From: Nitrospirota bacterium
GTDB lineage: Bacteria; Nitrospirota; Thermodesulfovibrionia; Thermodesulfovibrionales; Magnetobacteriaceae
Assembly (NCBI GenBank): GCA_015233895.1
Contig: JADFXG010000010.1
Location: 1-64,000 of the forward strand
Direction: 5' to 3'
DNA: 64,000 nt
In this document: positions 43,983 to 49,011 of the stretch, piece after piece
Layout: each line of letters starts with the position of its first letter
Numbering within the stretch: the first letter of the stretch is position 1
Notes under the pieces: model-generated
Told to the model about the DNA's origin: nothing
Databases searched by the model: none
Seen by the model: the letters and a program-made list of their open reading frames with translations, nothing else
Program-made: the position numbers and the translations under genes

Positions 43983-44414
43983 CTATAACTGTATCTCGTT
44001 TAACCGGTACAAAAACTCTTCCGGTTTTAAAATCTCCACTCCCTGAAAAACTTTTAAATCCAAAAGATGATGGTCTCCTGAAATAATAAAATCGGCTCTG
44101 CCCTCTAAAGCACATTCCAGATATTTATTATCGGTAGGGTCGTTGGGTATGGCTTCTATCTTTAAACCACCTTCGATGACTTCAGCTATGGCAAATAGAT
44201 TGTTTAAATCCTGTTCAACTTCATGTAAGGCTTTTTTATGGCGGTTTTGAATTTTCGGATACATGGCTACTTTTTTGACTTCAGAAATGATTTTAGTTGA
44301 AGTGATTAACTGAAGTTCGTCGGTTCTCAGTAAGTCAAAAATTTGTGCGGGTTTACCGTGAGAATTTAAAATGGCACTAATGAATATATTAGCATCCAGA
44401 ACGATTTTTAGCAT
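43983..44414 (-). CDS. PIN-domain toxin
   Basis: A 143-residue PIN-fold RNase of the putative toxin group COG1569. Acidic metal ligands: DAN (residue 7), SEVKK (Glu near 44), DNKYLECAL and a final SGDHHLLDL. It lies 16 bp downstream of a Phd/YefM-type antitoxin gene. These toxins cut RNA and are neutralised by the antitoxin. All expected acidic residues are present. Confidence 0.87.
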   Translation of the reverse strand: MLKIVLDANIFISAILNSHGKPAQIFDLLRTDELQLITSTKIISEVKKVAMYPKIQNRHKKALHEVEQDLNNLFAIAEVIEGGLKIEAIPNDPTDNKYLECALEGRADFIISGDHHLLDLKVFQGVEILKPEEFLYRLNEIQL

Positions 44415-44430
44415 GTTTTCAATTAGTTTT

Positions 44431-44748
44431 TCAAATTACTGTGTTAACTTTGTTTATCTCTTCACGCTCTTGTTTTTTAACAGCTTCTACGGCTTCCGCT
44501 ATTTCGTGCTCCAATATTTCAGGGTCAACATCCTTTGTAGTTTCTCGAATCTCATCAACCCATTTAAAAAACTTATCCCTCGCCCGTTCCTTTTCCTGTT
44601 TCATCCATTCGTATTTTTTTAGTGGTACAATGGCTACAAGCGGTTTTCCGGCACGCTCAATAATGTAGTCATCTTCTTTTAATGATACCTCATTCATAAT
44701 CTGCCCGAACTGGCGGCGGGCTTCTATCGCCGATATTGTTTTAAGCAT
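44431..44748 (-). CDS. Phd/YefM-family antitoxin
   Basis: A 105-residue antitoxin starting LKTISAIEARRQFGQIMNEV, the Phd/YefM DNA-binding start, with RAGKPLVAIVPLKKYE following and an acidic toxin-binding tail. I choose ATG 44748, 9 nt after AAAGGAGC; a longer frame reads back to 44910 but its N-terminal extension is unlike any antitoxin. It is first in the operon with the PIN toxin. Confidence 0.87.
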   Translation of the reverse strand: MLKTISAIEARRQFGQIMNEVSLKEDDYIIERAGKPLVAIVPLKKYEWMKQEKERARDKFFKWVDEIRETTKDVDPEILEHEIAEAVEAVKKQEREEINKVNTVI

Positions 44749-44899
44749 GGTCATTGCTCCTTTAGTTAGGATTGCTATAATTAGTATAGTATATGCAATA
44801 GCTATAGTCAAATGACTGTATTTGACACCGGCATAAGGTTTCAGATAATGCTTTTTATCGAATAATTTATTCTGAAGTATTATGTGATGCAAAAAAATA

Positions 44900-44924
44900 A
44901 TACTTGACAAAATTAGTAAGGTAT
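44900..44924 (+). promoter_or_regulatory. IscR type 1-like binding site
   Basis: The 25 bases match the IscR type 1 pattern ATASYYGACTRWWWYAGTC... at the ATA...GAC...AGT...TAT positions: ATACTTGACA-AAATT-AGTAAGGTAT. Only the bases at positions 10 and 19 differ from the usual T and C. It overlaps a TTGACA (44904-44909) and lies 18 bp before the Rrf2 gene start, as in autoregulated isc operons. Binding by the Rrf2 protein encoded next is inferred. Confidence 0.75.
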
Positions 44925-44941
44925 TATAAAATTAATTCATA

Positions 44942-45478
44942 ATGTTGAGATTATCAACAAAATGCCAGTACGGCGTAAGGGCTATGTATGAGATAGCGCG
45001 TGGATATCCTGACTCCCCATTGTCCATACGGGTGATATCGGAGCGGCAGGACGTATCAGTGCCGTTTTTAGAGCAGATACTGGGAAGGCTGCGCAAGGAT
45101 GGCCTTATAAAGAGTGTAAAGGGTCCGGGCGGTGGTTATTTATTAACAAAAAACCCTGAGGATATTACTATTGCAGAGATATTAACTACTTTAGAGGGCC
45201 CGTTTGCCATTACACTTTGTGCATCGGTGCATCCTGAAGACTCAGCTAGCTCAAAAGGCTGTATGAAAGCCGACCACTGTGTAATACAACACTTGTGGAG
45301 AGCGTTAGGGAGACAGATAGAGGAATTTTTACAGACCATAACACTGATGGATCTACTCAAGGGTAAACAGTTTGAGGATTTAATTTTTTCCTGTGATGCC
45401 GGTGCAGCCGGTTCGGTGTGTCCGAGGGATGTGCTACGGGCAGGCAGTAGCAAAGCTGTGGAGAGCGCTCTGACATGA
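44942..45478 (+). CDS. Rrf2/IscR-family regulator
   Basis: A 178-residue Rrf2 protein. The N-terminal winged helix begins LRLSTKCQYGVRAMYEIA; the GPGGGYLL wing is near residue 60. The three cluster Cys are in LCASVHP and KGCMKADHC (C-x14-C-x5-C), longer in the first gap than in E. coli IscR, then HLWRALGRQIEEFL. It likely senses Fe-S status. It starts 18 bp after the IscR-like box and overlaps the next gene by 4 bp. A long tail after the cluster ends in Cys-containing SCDAGAAGSVCPRDVL of unknown use. Confidence 0.88.
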   Translation: MLRLSTKCQYGVRAMYEIARGYPDSPLSIRVISERQDVSVPFLEQILGRLRKDGLIKSVKGPGGGYLLTKNPEDITIAEILTTLEGPFAITLCASVHPEDSASSKGCMKADHCVIQHLWRALGRQIEEFLQTITLMDLLKGKQFEDLIFSCDAGAAGSVCPRDVLRAGSSKAVESALT

Positions 45479-45765
45479 GTTTAAAATTTGTTGAAAATGT
45501 TAAGGCTGACGTGACAAGCGACATAGTGTATATGATGTGTCCTATGCACTTATTGAAATTAGACGAGCAAATAAAGGAGTTGGAAGACAGACAGGTGTTG
45601 GAGCTTCTAACAGACTATGATGGAGCTCTTGAGGATGTTCCGGCATGGTGCCAGAAGACTGGAAACGAGTTTTTGGGCATAGATGAGGAGGATGATTATT
45701 ACAAAATTTACATCAGAAAAGCCAGCGGCAAACCAGCGCCGGCGCTAAAAGAGGTGAATACATGA
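45475..45765 (+). CDS. TusA/SirA-like sulfur-carrier domain protein
   Basis: A 96-residue protein with the TusA core MMCPMHLLKLDEQIKEL (Cys near residue 22, in a CPxxLL-like pattern) and a later TGNEFLGIDEEDDYYKIYIRK. TusA relatives carry a persulfide to tRNA or cofactor enzymes. It overlaps both neighbours by 4 bp, so translation is coupled between the regulator and the IscS-like gene. A role as persulfide carrier in this operon is an inference. Confidence 0.8.
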   Translation: MSLKFVENVKADVTSDIVYMMCPMHLLKLDEQIKELEDRQVLELLTDYDGALEDVPAWCQKTGNEFLGIDEEDDYYKIYIRKASGKPAPALKEVNT

Positions 45766-46955
45766 AAAGACTATATTTTGACCATGTGGCTACAAACCCG
45801 CTGCTGCCTGAGGTGTTTGAGGTAATGGAGCCATACTTTAAGGGTGAGTTTGGAAATCCCCTTAGCATGTATGATCTGGGTTTTACGGCAAAACAGGGGA
45901 TAGAAAAAGCAAGGGAGCAGGTAGGTGCGTTAATAAACGCTAAGGCAGCGGAGATAATTTTCACGTCATCTGGAGCTGAGGCAAATAATTTCGCAGTAAA
46001 AGGACTTGCCATGTCAAGGCAAAACGATGGTAACCACGTAATAATATCTAAAGCCGAACACCACTCGGTGCTTAACACTGCCAGGTCACTGGAAAAACAG
46101 GGTTTTGTTGTAACATACCTGTCTTTGGATAAACACGGGCTTGTTGACCCTGCAGCTGTAAAGGCGGCAATCAACAAAGACACAGTACTGATTTCAATCA
46201 CACATGCCAATTCCGAGGTGGGTACGATAGAGCCAATACAGGAGATAGCTGAAATTGCCCATGAGCATAAAATTACTTTTCACGCCGATGGTGTTGCCAC
46301 AGTGGGCAACATGGAGGTGGATGTAAAGGCACTGGGAGTGGATGCTCTAAGTATGGCAGCGCACCAGTTTTATGGCCCTAAGGGAGCAGGGGCGCTTTAT
46401 CTGAGGGCAGGGCAGAGGATTTTACCCCTTATCTATGGCGGAATACAGGAAAACGGCAGGCGGGCGGGAACTGAAAATGTGCCAGCAATAGTTGGTATGG
46501 GTAAGGCGGCAGAGCTTGCTAAGGAAAAACTGCCGGAGCGGATGGCACACGTTAAAAAGTTAAGAGACAGGTGTATTGAGGGTCTATCTAAGGTGGAAAA
46601 GGTGCACTTAACGGGGCATCCTACGCTGAGACTTCCCGGGCATGCCAGTTTCGTTGTGGAGTTTATAGAGGGAGAAGGGATGTTGCTTATGCTCCTTTCT
46701 AAGTCAATATATGCAGCAAGCGGTTCAGCTTGTACATCAAAGGCACTTAAGGCCTCTCCCACGCTTGCCTCAATGGGCATACCGATAAGCCTCACGCACG
46801 GCTCGATTGTGTTTTCCTTTGGTATAGGCAACGAGATGGAGGATGTGGAGAGTTTACTTGTGGAGTTTCCAGCCATAGTGGGTAAGTTAAGGGCAATGTC
46901 TCCTTTTGCTAAGGAGGGCTGGCGCCCGGAGGATATGAAAACAGAGGAAAGTTAA
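45762..46955 (+). CDS. IscS/NifS-like cysteine desulfurase lacking the PLP lysine
   Basis: A 397-residue class V aminotransferase fold. It keeps the PLP-pocket features FTSSGAEANNFAV (about 67-79), AEHHSVL, THANSEVGTIEP, FHADGVAT and the mobile Cys loop SGSACTSKAL near residue 324. The catalytic motif, normally S-x-H-K-x-YGPKG, reads AAHQFYGPKG near residue 202: the Schiff-base Lys is Gln (CAG at 46366-46368). The start of the family (FDxxATTP) reads FDHVATNPL. PLP-dependent desulfuration should fail. Archaeoglobus IscS is a known case with this Lys replaced, proposed to give a Cys ligand during cluster assembly with IscU instead of sulfur. It is the third gene of the Rrf2 operon. Confidence 0.9.
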   Translation: MKRLYFDHVATNPLLPEVFEVMEPYFKGEFGNPLSMYDLGFTAKQGIEKAREQVGALINAKAAEIIFTSSGAEANNFAVKGLAMSRQNDGNHVIISKAEHHSVLNTARSLEKQGFVVTYLSLDKHGLVDPAAVKAAINKDTVLISITHANSEVGTIEPIQEIAEIAHEHKITFHADGVATVGNMEVDVKALGVDALSMAAHQFYGPKGAGALYLRAGQRILPLIYGGIQENGRRAGTENVPAIVGMGKAAELAKEKLPERMAHVKKLRDRCIEGLSKVEKVHLTGHPTLRLPGHASFVVEFIEGEGMLLMLLSKSIYAASGSACTSKALKASPTLASMGIPISLTHGSIVFSFGIGNEMEDVESLLVEFPAIVGKLRAMSPFAKEGWRPEDMKTEES

Positions 46956-46988: not shown

Positions 46989-47357
46989 ATGTATAGCCAA
47001 AAATTAATGGATCACTTTACAAACCCAAGAAACGTGGGGGAGATGCCCGATGCCGATGGGGTTGGGATGGAGGGAAATCCTACCTGCGGCGATACAATGA
47101 AACTTTTCATTAAAGTGGAAAATGAAAAAATAGTTGATATAAAATTTCAGACATTTGGCTGTGGAGCGGCAATAGCGGTCTCCAGTATGATAACAGAGAT
47201 GGCAAAGGGCAAGACGCTGGATGAGGCGCTCCTGATAACGAAACAGGATGTGGCAGATGCTTTAGACGGGCTGCCGCCACAGAAAATGCACTGCTCAAAT
47301 CTTGGCGCCGATGCTTTAAGAAAAGCCATCGAGGACTATCGCCAGCGTGGTAATTGA
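46989..47357 (+). CDS. iscU: IscU/NifU-type Fe-S scaffold
   Basis: A 122-residue scaffold. The three Cys are in NPTCGD (with the conserved Asp), FGCGAA and MHCSNL, all intact, so clusters can form. It lies 33 bp after the IscS-like gene. The N-terminal MYSQKLMDHFTNPRNVG is the normal family start. With the Lys-less IscS the sulfur source is unclear; sulfide is an option in an anaerobe. Confidence 0.95.
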   Translation: MYSQKLMDHFTNPRNVGEMPDADGVGMEGNPTCGDTMKLFIKVENEKIVDIKFQTFGCGAAIAVSSMITEMAKGKTLDEALLITKQDVADALDGLPPQKMHCSNLGADALRKAIEDYRQRGN

Positions 47358-47483
47358 AAGCCTTTGAAGGTAAAGTGGACTGTAACAGGAATTAAACCCT
47401 GAGTGGTTGCTATTTTACTTTTAAAATGTTACAATACGTGCCGGTTCAGCTGTGTGTTGTCATCAGGCTGAAGTGAGTTAAAT

Positions 47484-47572
47484 GGAGAGGTGGCCGAGCG
47501 GTCGAAGGCAGCCGCCTGCTAAGCGGTTGTGGGGGTAATACTCCACCCAGGGTTCGAATCCCTGCCTCTCCG
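47484..47572 (+). tRNA. tRNA-Ser (GCT)
   Basis: A complete type II tRNA of 89 nt: acceptor GGAGAGG with CCTCTCC, a long variable arm (GTGGGGGTAATACTCCAC region), anticodon loop CTGCTAA giving GCT, T loop GTTCGAA. The 3' CCA is not encoded. Confidence 0.96.
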
Positions 47573-47760
47573 GTTCTTTTATCTTTTAAAATCAATAGGT
47601 TAGCTTCGCTTGTTTTACATAATAAGTGTTCCCGAACTGTCCTCAGGTATTTTCAATCTATATTTTTAATTGTAGTATCGTTCAAGTCTATTAGTTTTTT
47701 ACTTGAGGCAACTCGTGGTTGCGTGTTGCAATTCTAATGTTTTTATGGTAACGTAGGAGT

Positions 47761-48194: not shown

Positions 48195-48602
48195 TTAAAA
48201 CGTATGTCCCACGTGCAGAAGAAAGAGGATTCCTATTGCCATAACACAAAGTGACAGAATCAAATCAAGAACAGGCGACAGGATAAACCTCTCGGCACAA
48301 ATCTGCTTTTCGATTTTCTTATACCGGATAAAACAAAATAAACTTAACACCACTCCCACTGCTATCAACAATTTGCCGATTGACGTAGAATAGTTTTTTA
48401 TCTCTTGTATTGCTCCTGTCTTAATACCGGTTATATTCATAATATCTATTGATTTCAGTAAAAACAGGCCAAACTTCTCTATCACAAAGCCAAATGCCAT
48501 GATGGACAGAGACGTTCGTATCCACGATAAAAACGTTCTCTCGTTTGAAAGATGCTGAAGGATATGGTCGAACTCGTTATTGTCTGGTTTGCACTCTGCC
48601 AT
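48195..48602 (-). CDS. DUF202 membrane protein (YidH-like)
   Basis: A 135-residue small membrane protein. LSWIRTSLSIMAFGFVIEKFG (about 20-40) is the DUF202 signature; two more helices follow at ~68-85 and ~108-130. Tandem with the next DUF202 gene, 16 bp upstream. Function unknown. Confidence 0.88.
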   Translation of the reverse strand: MAECKPDNNEFDHILQHLSNERTFLSWIRTSLSIMAFGFVIEKFGLFLLKSIDIMNITGIKTGAIQEIKNYSTSIGKLLIAVGVVLSLFCFIRYKKIEKQICAERFILSPVLDLILSLCVMAIGILFLLHVGHTF

Positions 48603-48618
48603 AGTGTTATGAGTCTCC

Positions 48619-49011
48619 TTATAAAGATTTATAAAGATTATAAATTAAGACAGTACTGATAACCAGGCCTGCCGCGGTAAGAAAACACGTTAAATAGTTC
48701 GTAAGCGTGTATCGCCCTTGCTGTATCATTTTATTAACATTTCTATACCGTATGCCGGCTAAAAATATAACGGAGGTTCCCAGCACAAGTAAAATACTGC
48801 CTGCTGCTGATGAGGTAATAAGTATTCCGGAGAAAAATATAGACTTTCGTTGAGTTAAGGAGGAAAACGCATTCAGGCTTTCGACAAAAATAACAAATTT
48901 CTCACTGATTATCCCAAATACGACTATGGATATTCCTGTTTTAACCCACGACAGGAAATTTCTGTCCATCACCTGCCGTGCTCTTTCTATGAGTTTCTCC
49001 TGCTCTGTCAA
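48619..49011 (-). CDS. DUF202 membrane protein
   Basis: A 130-residue DUF202 protein with LSWVKTGISIVVFGIISEKF near 21-40 and two later helices. It is a diverged tandem partner of the preceding gene and probably its upstream operon mate. It is divergent from hldE. Function unknown. Confidence 0.88.
   Translation of the reverse strand: MTEQEKLIERARQVMDRNFLSWVKTGISIVVFGIISEKFVIFVESLNAFSSLTQRKSIFFSGILITSSAAGSILLVLGTSVIFLAGIRYRNVNKMIQQGRYTLTNYLTCFLTAAGLVISTVLIYNLYKSL

Follow-up and report, generated by a model that had tools for sequence, protein, structure and literature searches.

In a Nitrospirota bacterium, the IscS protein encoded in an Fe-S cluster assembly operon has lost the catalytic residues of a cysteine desulfurase and retains the mobile loop and the residues that dock IscU; the operon and its operator are conserved, and SUF is absent. 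IscS normally takes sulfur from cysteine for Fe-S cluster building. We consider it quite probable that this desulfurase-dead IscS presents its loop cysteine to IscU, and that sulfur comes from sulfide, from a TusA persulfide, or from both. The absence of desulfurase activity, the complex with IscU and the role of TusA are all inferred, without biochemistry. Our evidence consists of sequences only, the genomes are mostly metagenome-assembled, and phyla other than Nitrospirota were outside the survey. The window referred to below is the whole 64,000 nucleotide stretch that was analysed (contig JADFXG010000010.1, positions 1 to 64,000); the source genome has 3.71 Mb and a completeness of 100%.

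The operon and its regulator

Four genes follow each other on the forward strand. The first (44942..45478) encodes an Rrf2/IscR-type regulator of 178 aa (PF02082, 131 bits) with cluster-ligand cysteines at 93, 107 and 113, and the second (45475..45765) a TusA-family sulfur carrier of 96 aa, with the active Cys22 and a second Cys59 (PF01206, 72.7 bits, cut-off 28.6). Then come the desulfurase-dead IscS (45762..46955, 397 aa), an IscS homolog with replaced catalytic residues whose fold is nearest to that of Archaeoglobus fulgidus IscS (4hvk/4eb5), and an IscU/NifU_N scaffold (46989..47357, 122 aa) with Cys33, Cys58 and Cys102 (PF01592, 167.9 bits; NifU_clost, 204 bits, cut-off 187.9). The regulator stop overlaps the tusA start and the tusA stop overlaps the iscS start, both as ATGA, and iscU starts 33 bp 3' of iscS.

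An IscR type-1-like operator, ATACTTGACAAAATTAGTAAGGTAT, is found at 44900..44924 on the forward strand, and matches the consensus ATASYYGACTRWWWYAGTCRRSTAT at 23 of 25 positions. For the E. coli type-1 consensus at 3 mismatches, 0.03 matches are expected per window. A box with at least 21 of 25 matches was present in 140 of the 151 orthologous upstream regions, while shuffled upstream regions reached at most 19. The three ligand cysteines of the regulator are present in all 129 aligned homologs. The Rrf2 regulator with three ligand cysteines and the type-1 box agree with an IscR-regulated ISC operon, of which the HscB co-chaperone is lacking, and the genes are probably under the control of an IscR-type [2Fe-2S] regulator. 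An earlier, sequence-only reading of this DNA had described an operon made of a regulator, an IscR-like box, a TusA-like carrier and an intact IscU. The Pfam and NCBIfam profile matches bear this out, and the box is real, as it is kept upstream of orthologous operons.

The order Rrf2-TusA-IscS-IscU is kept across the class Thermodesulfovibrionia (Nitrospirota). Elsewhere in Nitrospirota, the arrangements are Rrf2-IscS-IscU-TusA, Rrf2-IscS-TusA, or IscS paired with TusA and no IscU. In the window, a PIN_3 toxin/Phd-YefM antitoxin-like pair lies upstream of the operon in the opposite orientation (43983-44910, reverse strand), a tRNA-Ser (gct) is located directly 3' of it (47483-47573), and two adjoining DUF202 membrane protein genes are found on the reverse strand at 48195-49011.

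The active site of IscS

In E. coli IscS, K206 forms the Schiff base, R354 binds the substrate carboxylate, Q183, T76 and N155 contact PLP, and C328 is the cysteine of the mobile loop. The corresponding lysine motif of the window IscS reads AAHQFYGPKG, and Gln202 replaces the PLP lysine. The missing Schiff-base lysine had been pointed out in the sequence-only reading, with its codon placed at 46366-46368; translation and alignment of the ORF give CAG at 46365..46367 on the forward strand, one base away. The mobile loop SGSACTSK, reported there as kept, is indeed intact, with the codon of Cys324 (E. coli Cys328) at 46731..46733 on the same strand. Not mentioned in that reading is that substrate-binding and other PLP-binding residues are gone too, throughout the class. 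Aligned with the IscS of E. coli (L192) and of A. fulgidus, the window protein has K206 replaced by Q202, R354 by V350, Q183 by A179, T76 by A72, N155 by S151 and S203 by A199 (E. coli numbering first), and H104, D180, H205, T243 and C328 are retained.

This pattern is shared by the relatives, in which a check of the Lys-Gln change had been proposed. Lys is absent from all 114 distinct class orthologs read: position 206 is Q in 109, E in two, and M, L or I in one each. The R354 position is V in 113 and I in one, the Q183 position A in 107, S in four and V in three, and no variation is seen at C328, D180, H104, H205 and T243. Outside the class, 23 Lys-less Nitrospirota homologs carry Q, N, R, P, M, T or S at position 206. 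The loop cysteine is present in 137 of 137 Lys-less homologs, and D180 and H104 are likewise kept.

When K206, R354 and Q183 were scored in 179 aligned rows, 33 had all three, 138 had none and eight had K206 alone; no homolog among the 179 had lost K206 and kept R354 or Q183. As no Lys-less homolog has R354 or Q183, and eight have only the Lys, it is probable that the Lys went after desulfurase function had already been lost. The alignment suggests that the substrate Arg and the PLP Gln were lost before, or together with, the Lys, and that the Lys position drifted later. The eight proteins with K206 and without Arg354 and Gln183 are all from Nitrospirota (L193, L195, L142, L145, L146, L134, L135, L137); they are likely intermediates, and probably dead despite their Lys.

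Homology to NifS and IscS and the aminotransferase class V fold are well supported (PF00266, 265 bits), and the score is below the curated NCBIfam cut-offs of both NifS (462 versus 530.75) and IscS (366 versus 643.2). Of the features that define a cysteine desulfurase (EC 2.8.1.7), the mobile-loop Cys is met, and the Schiff-base Lys, Arg354 and Gln183 are not. From the residues lost, we infer that the protein cannot be a PLP-dependent cysteine desulfurase, although no biochemistry supports this lack of activity.

Conservation, predicted structure and phylogeny

The closest named relatives of the window IscS are from Nitrospirota: a MAG (97% identity), Ca. Magnetominusculus (74%) and Ca. Magnetobacterium casense (71%). 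The same Gln is present in the ortholog of 97% identity, which comes from another MAG, and in orthologs of 89-97% identity from three further genomes of the same genus. These assemblies being independent, an error of reads or assembly is ruled out, and with no Lys in the 114 class orthologs, a lysine masked by a sequence error, which would have refuted the sequence-only reading, was not found. In a contig scan, the nearest 80 matches were all Nitrospirota-like. The scan pattern contained AHQFYGPK, and the scan therefore favours Gln; a genome search free of this bias left the picture unchanged. In a plasmid collection, the only relatives were below 48% identity, and the annotated ones were ordinary nifS.

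Compared with its orthologs in the same genus, iscS has a dN/dS of 0.05-0.07, near the values of iscU and tusA; on this estimate, the operon is under purifying selection. No variation is seen in the 114 class rows at S326, A327, C328, L333, S336, L380, R381, S384 and P385. In E. coli IscS, the changes S326A and L333A bring IscU-dependent s2C down to 10-20%, and the C-terminus is part of the IscU interface (PMC2854127). The earlier claim that the locus is not decayed is consistent with this low dN/dS, the 114 intact orthologs and the invariant loop and docking residues.

A predicted model of the window IscS has a mean pLDDT of 81, with low confidence in the loop and in the 225-236 stretch. Its best Foldseek match is A. 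fulgidus IscS 4hvk (TM 0.87/0.94), and the TM values to IscS structures are 0.87-0.91. For phylogeny, a quick IscS tree was built with the active-site columns removed. The class Thermodesulfovibrionia IscS form one clade in it (34 rows, starred 100). The distribution of K versus non-K requires 6 changes, at least 3 of them forced by starred branches, and that of R354 versus non-R requires 3. A. fulgidus IscS, on a long branch, falls outside both the 52-row clade that includes the Nitrospirota dead IscS (starred 97) and the class clade (starred 100). As it branches away from the Nitrospirota clade, its Lys loss looks separate.

Fe-S assembly systems in the genomes

The window iscU is the only NifU_N gene of the source genome, so that a second IscU is absent there. 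No SUFBD_core match was found in the source genome, the domain being detected in 14 of 14 controls, and on that ground SUF was rejected as a backup there. For HscB, no HSCB_C match was found in the source genome either; among the controls only E. coli has HSCB_C. The ligand cysteines of IscU are kept in every homolog that covers the site.

The class was surveyed through 121 genomes at least 95% complete, of which 88 encode an IscS of at least 58% identity. About 60 of these 88 IscS sequences were read, all Lys-less, and the remainder are inferred to be Lys-less. A single NifU_N is present in 39 of the 88 operon genomes, and 25 of these are without any SUFBD match, including the source genome and G001, a single contig from the same genus. 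The other 49 have a second NifU_N, which at the loci inspected with their flanks (L172, L173) adjoins a Lys-bearing NifS. Strong SufB (E < 1e-30) is found in 5 of the 88 genomes with the operon versus 20 of the 33 without it (Fisher p 4e-10), and operon and strong SufB are nearly mutually exclusive within the class. The p value overstates the evidence, since most of the 33 operon-less genomes come from a single genus and a single family in which the operon was lost. As far as profile searches can tell, the dead-IscS operon is the main Fe-S assembly system that can be recognised, and in many genomes the sole one, and the dead IscS apparently holds an essential position.

The operon-less lineages of the class (genus g15, with G026, G038 and eight further genomes, and family f10) have a strong SmsB-like SufB instead, and in genus g15 NifU_N is missing altogether. 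In G029, G024, G138 and others, which have the dead IscS, a short (~310-350 aa) and weak SUFBD_core protein is encoded.

TusA and the source of sulfur

With the catalytic site gone, and the operon often the only assembly system, sulfur must come from elsewhere than this IscS. We propose that the IscS dimer would be retained as a partner of IscU, docking the scaffold, and that the loop Cys324 would be presented as a cluster ligand and/or as a persulfide acceptor. Sulfur would arrive as sulfide or on the persulfide of the co-encoded TusA, and not via cysteine desulfuration by the dead IscS. The data permit sulfide, a TusA persulfide, or cysteine sulfur relayed from a paralog.

Such a second, Lys-bearing desulfurase had been recommended as a check, and the source genome contains a single full-length one: a NifS-like paralog on contig C3, at a locus (G000:C3:82545-91687, L186) where it lies beside two PF04143 sulfur-transport genes. 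A Lys-bearing NifS-like paralog is present in nearly all dead-IscS genomes. Together with the second NifU_N of the 49 genomes, this means that cysteine sulfur could still feed the pathway, which counts against our proposal.

The window TusA meets the criterion of the family (PF01206, active Cys) and not that of the TusA equivalog (NCBIfam TusA, 30.7 bits versus a cut-off of 78), and it is one of seven TusA-family genes in the source genome. Its active-site motif is C-P-M-H and not C-P-x-P. The C-P-x-H form is class-wide (His in 110 of 110), and the other Nitrospirota homologs carry C-P-x-P.

One explanation is a relay in which a Lys-bearing desulfurase, a rhodanese or a sulfur-oxidation enzyme would charge TusA, which would pass its persulfide to Cys324 and from there to IscU, in the reverse of the E. 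coli direction. Within 900 bp, a TusA gene accompanies 121 of the 129 dead IscS and 0 of the 29 canonical IscS, and Cys22 is present in 136 of 136 TusA homologs (Cys59 in 134). The IscU-less IscS-TusA pairs of other Nitrospirota families, the invariant loop Cys, S326 and L333, and the position of the Lys-bearing NifS beside the two PF04143 genes also speak for a relay. However, the tree yields only one independent contrast for the association of TusA with dead IscS, so that no statistical claim can be made for it. In the alignment, the E. coli TusA-contact residues Trp45, Glu49 and Arg237 are not conserved in dead IscS, and conservation of the TusA interface was rejected as support; nor is there any demonstration of reverse transfer. 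We regard the relay as a serious possibility, somewhat short of even odds. The fixed linkage of TusA to dead IscS favours taking TusA seriously as a sulfur source.

Lys-less IscS with TusA and without IscU was seen at L196 and L200, and also at L197, L204, L209 and L210. The pairs of L196 and L200 adjoin a fatty-acid desaturase gene, and at least L196 and L197 additionally carry a separate canonical Rrf2-IscS-IscU operon.

Alternatively, sulfide alone might be the source. The dead IscS would then be a structural and ligand partner of IscU, as in A. fulgidus (PMC7585200), and TusA would merely be co-transcribed, for another pathway or for regulation. In an anaerobic E. coli delta-iscS strain, sulfide restores Fe-S assembly, with IscU required (PMC13015791), and methanogens and Thermococcus offer parallels for a desulfurase-independent sulfur supply (PMC12442378). 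As dsrA is above cut-off in 113 of the 121 class genomes, the source genome included, sulfide is metabolically at hand. To discriminate between sulfur sources dsrA is uninformative, being nearly universal and found also in operon-less genomes. Some dead IscS-IscU pairs are without TusA (L157, L164, L193, L195, L199, L207), and the lack of conservation at Trp45 and Glu49 also speaks for this account. On the other hand, TusA adjoins dead IscS in four or more gene arrangements, IscU-less pairs included, its active Cys is invariant, and tusA overlaps the iscS start codon here. Supply by sulfide only is a somewhat doubtful account, which we do not discard.

Tentatively, our proposal can be pushed further: the operon would be a sole Fe-S machinery without a desulfurase of its own, TusA persulfide would load the dead IscS platform, in the reverse of the IscS-to-TusA direction, and dissimilatory sulfur would enter clusters directly. 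As to the direct donor, we would give something less than half of the weight to TusA persulfide, a slightly smaller share to free sulfide, and a small remainder to other donors; this is an approximate judgement, and not a measurement.

Other explanations

The protein could still be a PLP enzyme, with PLP held non-covalently or via another lysine, and with a slow desulfurase or some other activity. The invariance of Asp180 and His104 leaves room for binding of PLP or of another ligand, which counts against our proposal, and His205 and Thr243 do not vary within the class either. However, the Schiff-base Lys, Arg354, Gln183, Thr76 and Asn155 are all replaced, the Lys position drifts between Q, E, M, L, I, R, N, P, T and S, which is unexpected for a catalytic residue, and the A. 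fulgidus IscS, with Asp, is reported to be inactive. We find a remaining PLP enzyme very unlikely.

The dead IscS might also pair with the Lys-bearing NifS paralog as a heterodimer, and lend its loop Cys in trans to the PLP site of the latter. The paralog is indeed found in almost all dead-IscS genomes, and the phosphate residue Thr243, which is shared across the dimer subunits, is invariant. The two proteins have only ~40% identity and are encoded at separate loci, however, and in one genome (G007, 92% complete) no full-length Lys-bearing paralog was found. Such a heterodimer seems highly improbable to us. Lastly, a decaying gene or a Gln due to a sequencing error, for which only the loss of several catalytic residues could be invoked, was rejected and is practically ruled out by the class-wide conservation, the independent assemblies and the dN/dS.

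Relation to known systems

The closest precedent for a desulfurase-dead partner of IscU is A. fulgidus IscS (AF IscS2; PDB 4eb5, 4eb7, 4hvk; D199K mutant 4r5f), whose sequence we verified letter for letter against PDB 4eb5. This protein, in which an Asp replaces the Lys, is reported to be without desulfurase activity and yet to provide one of its Cys as a ligand of the cluster on IscU (PMC7585200). The window IscS shares with it the replaced Lys (Asp199 in A. fulgidus), the kept loop Cys and a ligand-bearing IscU as partner, encoded alongside; Gln183 and Arg354 are lost in A. fulgidus too, as Ala and Leu. The two differ in having Gln instead of Asp, they share 41-42% identity, and the Nitrospirota operon adds an IscR-type regulator and TusA. 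Of the parallel with A. fulgidus drawn in the sequence-only reading, the mode of action with IscU fits all the evidence; a shared lineage seems not to, as the loss looks separate on the quick tree, where the A. fulgidus branch is long, and the two cases are rather analogous. By all signs that sequences can give, the Nitrospirota protein functions like A. fulgidus IscS, but belongs to a bacterial clade with what looks like its own Lys loss and with its own TusA operon. No report of a bacterial Lys-less IscS was found in the open-access literature, subscription papers being outside the search.

Methanosarcina acetivorans IscS1 (MA0808) is also a Lys-less IscS beside IscU, and possibly A. fulgidus-like (PMC7585200). 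It belongs to one of three iscSU clusters in that organism and is without biochemistry, because of inclusion bodies, whereas in Nitrospirota the dead IscS-IscU pair frequently stands alone as the ISC/SUF system. The MIS (MisS-MisU) and SMS (SmsB-SmsC) systems are likewise described as minimal, with no HscBA, Fdx or IscA in the operon of the IscS-IscU pair (PMC12442378). MisS is described as a cysteine desulfurase homolog, unlike the window IscS, which is without the active site. With the E. coli operon IscR-IscS-IscU-IscA-HscB-HscA-Fdx, the window operon shares an IscR-type regulator with a type-1 box, the IscS fold and IscU; it differs by its dead IscS, by TusA inside the operon and by the absence of HscB from the genome. 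TusA is a known partner of IscS in E. coli (PMC2854127). The nearest solved sequences (~430 bits), PDB 9wep and its variants, are cysteine desulfurases with the same SPF-type C-terminus, but keep the Lys, Gln183 and Arg354.

Implications

In current models, ISC systems obtain their sulfur from cysteine through IscS. The Nitrospirota operon indicates that two roles of IscS are separable, that of sulfur source and that of IscU partner and Cys donor. Its relatives suggest the order in which the first was lost, the substrate Arg and the PLP Gln going first and the Lys later. More than 100 proteins likely labelled as cysteine desulfurases by homology are probably not desulfurases. A widespread group of bacteria, magnetotactic and Dsr-bearing Nitrospirota among them, would have kept the IscS-IscU partnership and discarded the desulfurase, often in their sole assembly system, and the question of where sulfide-rich anaerobes obtain the sulfur of their Fe-S clusters becomes directly testable.
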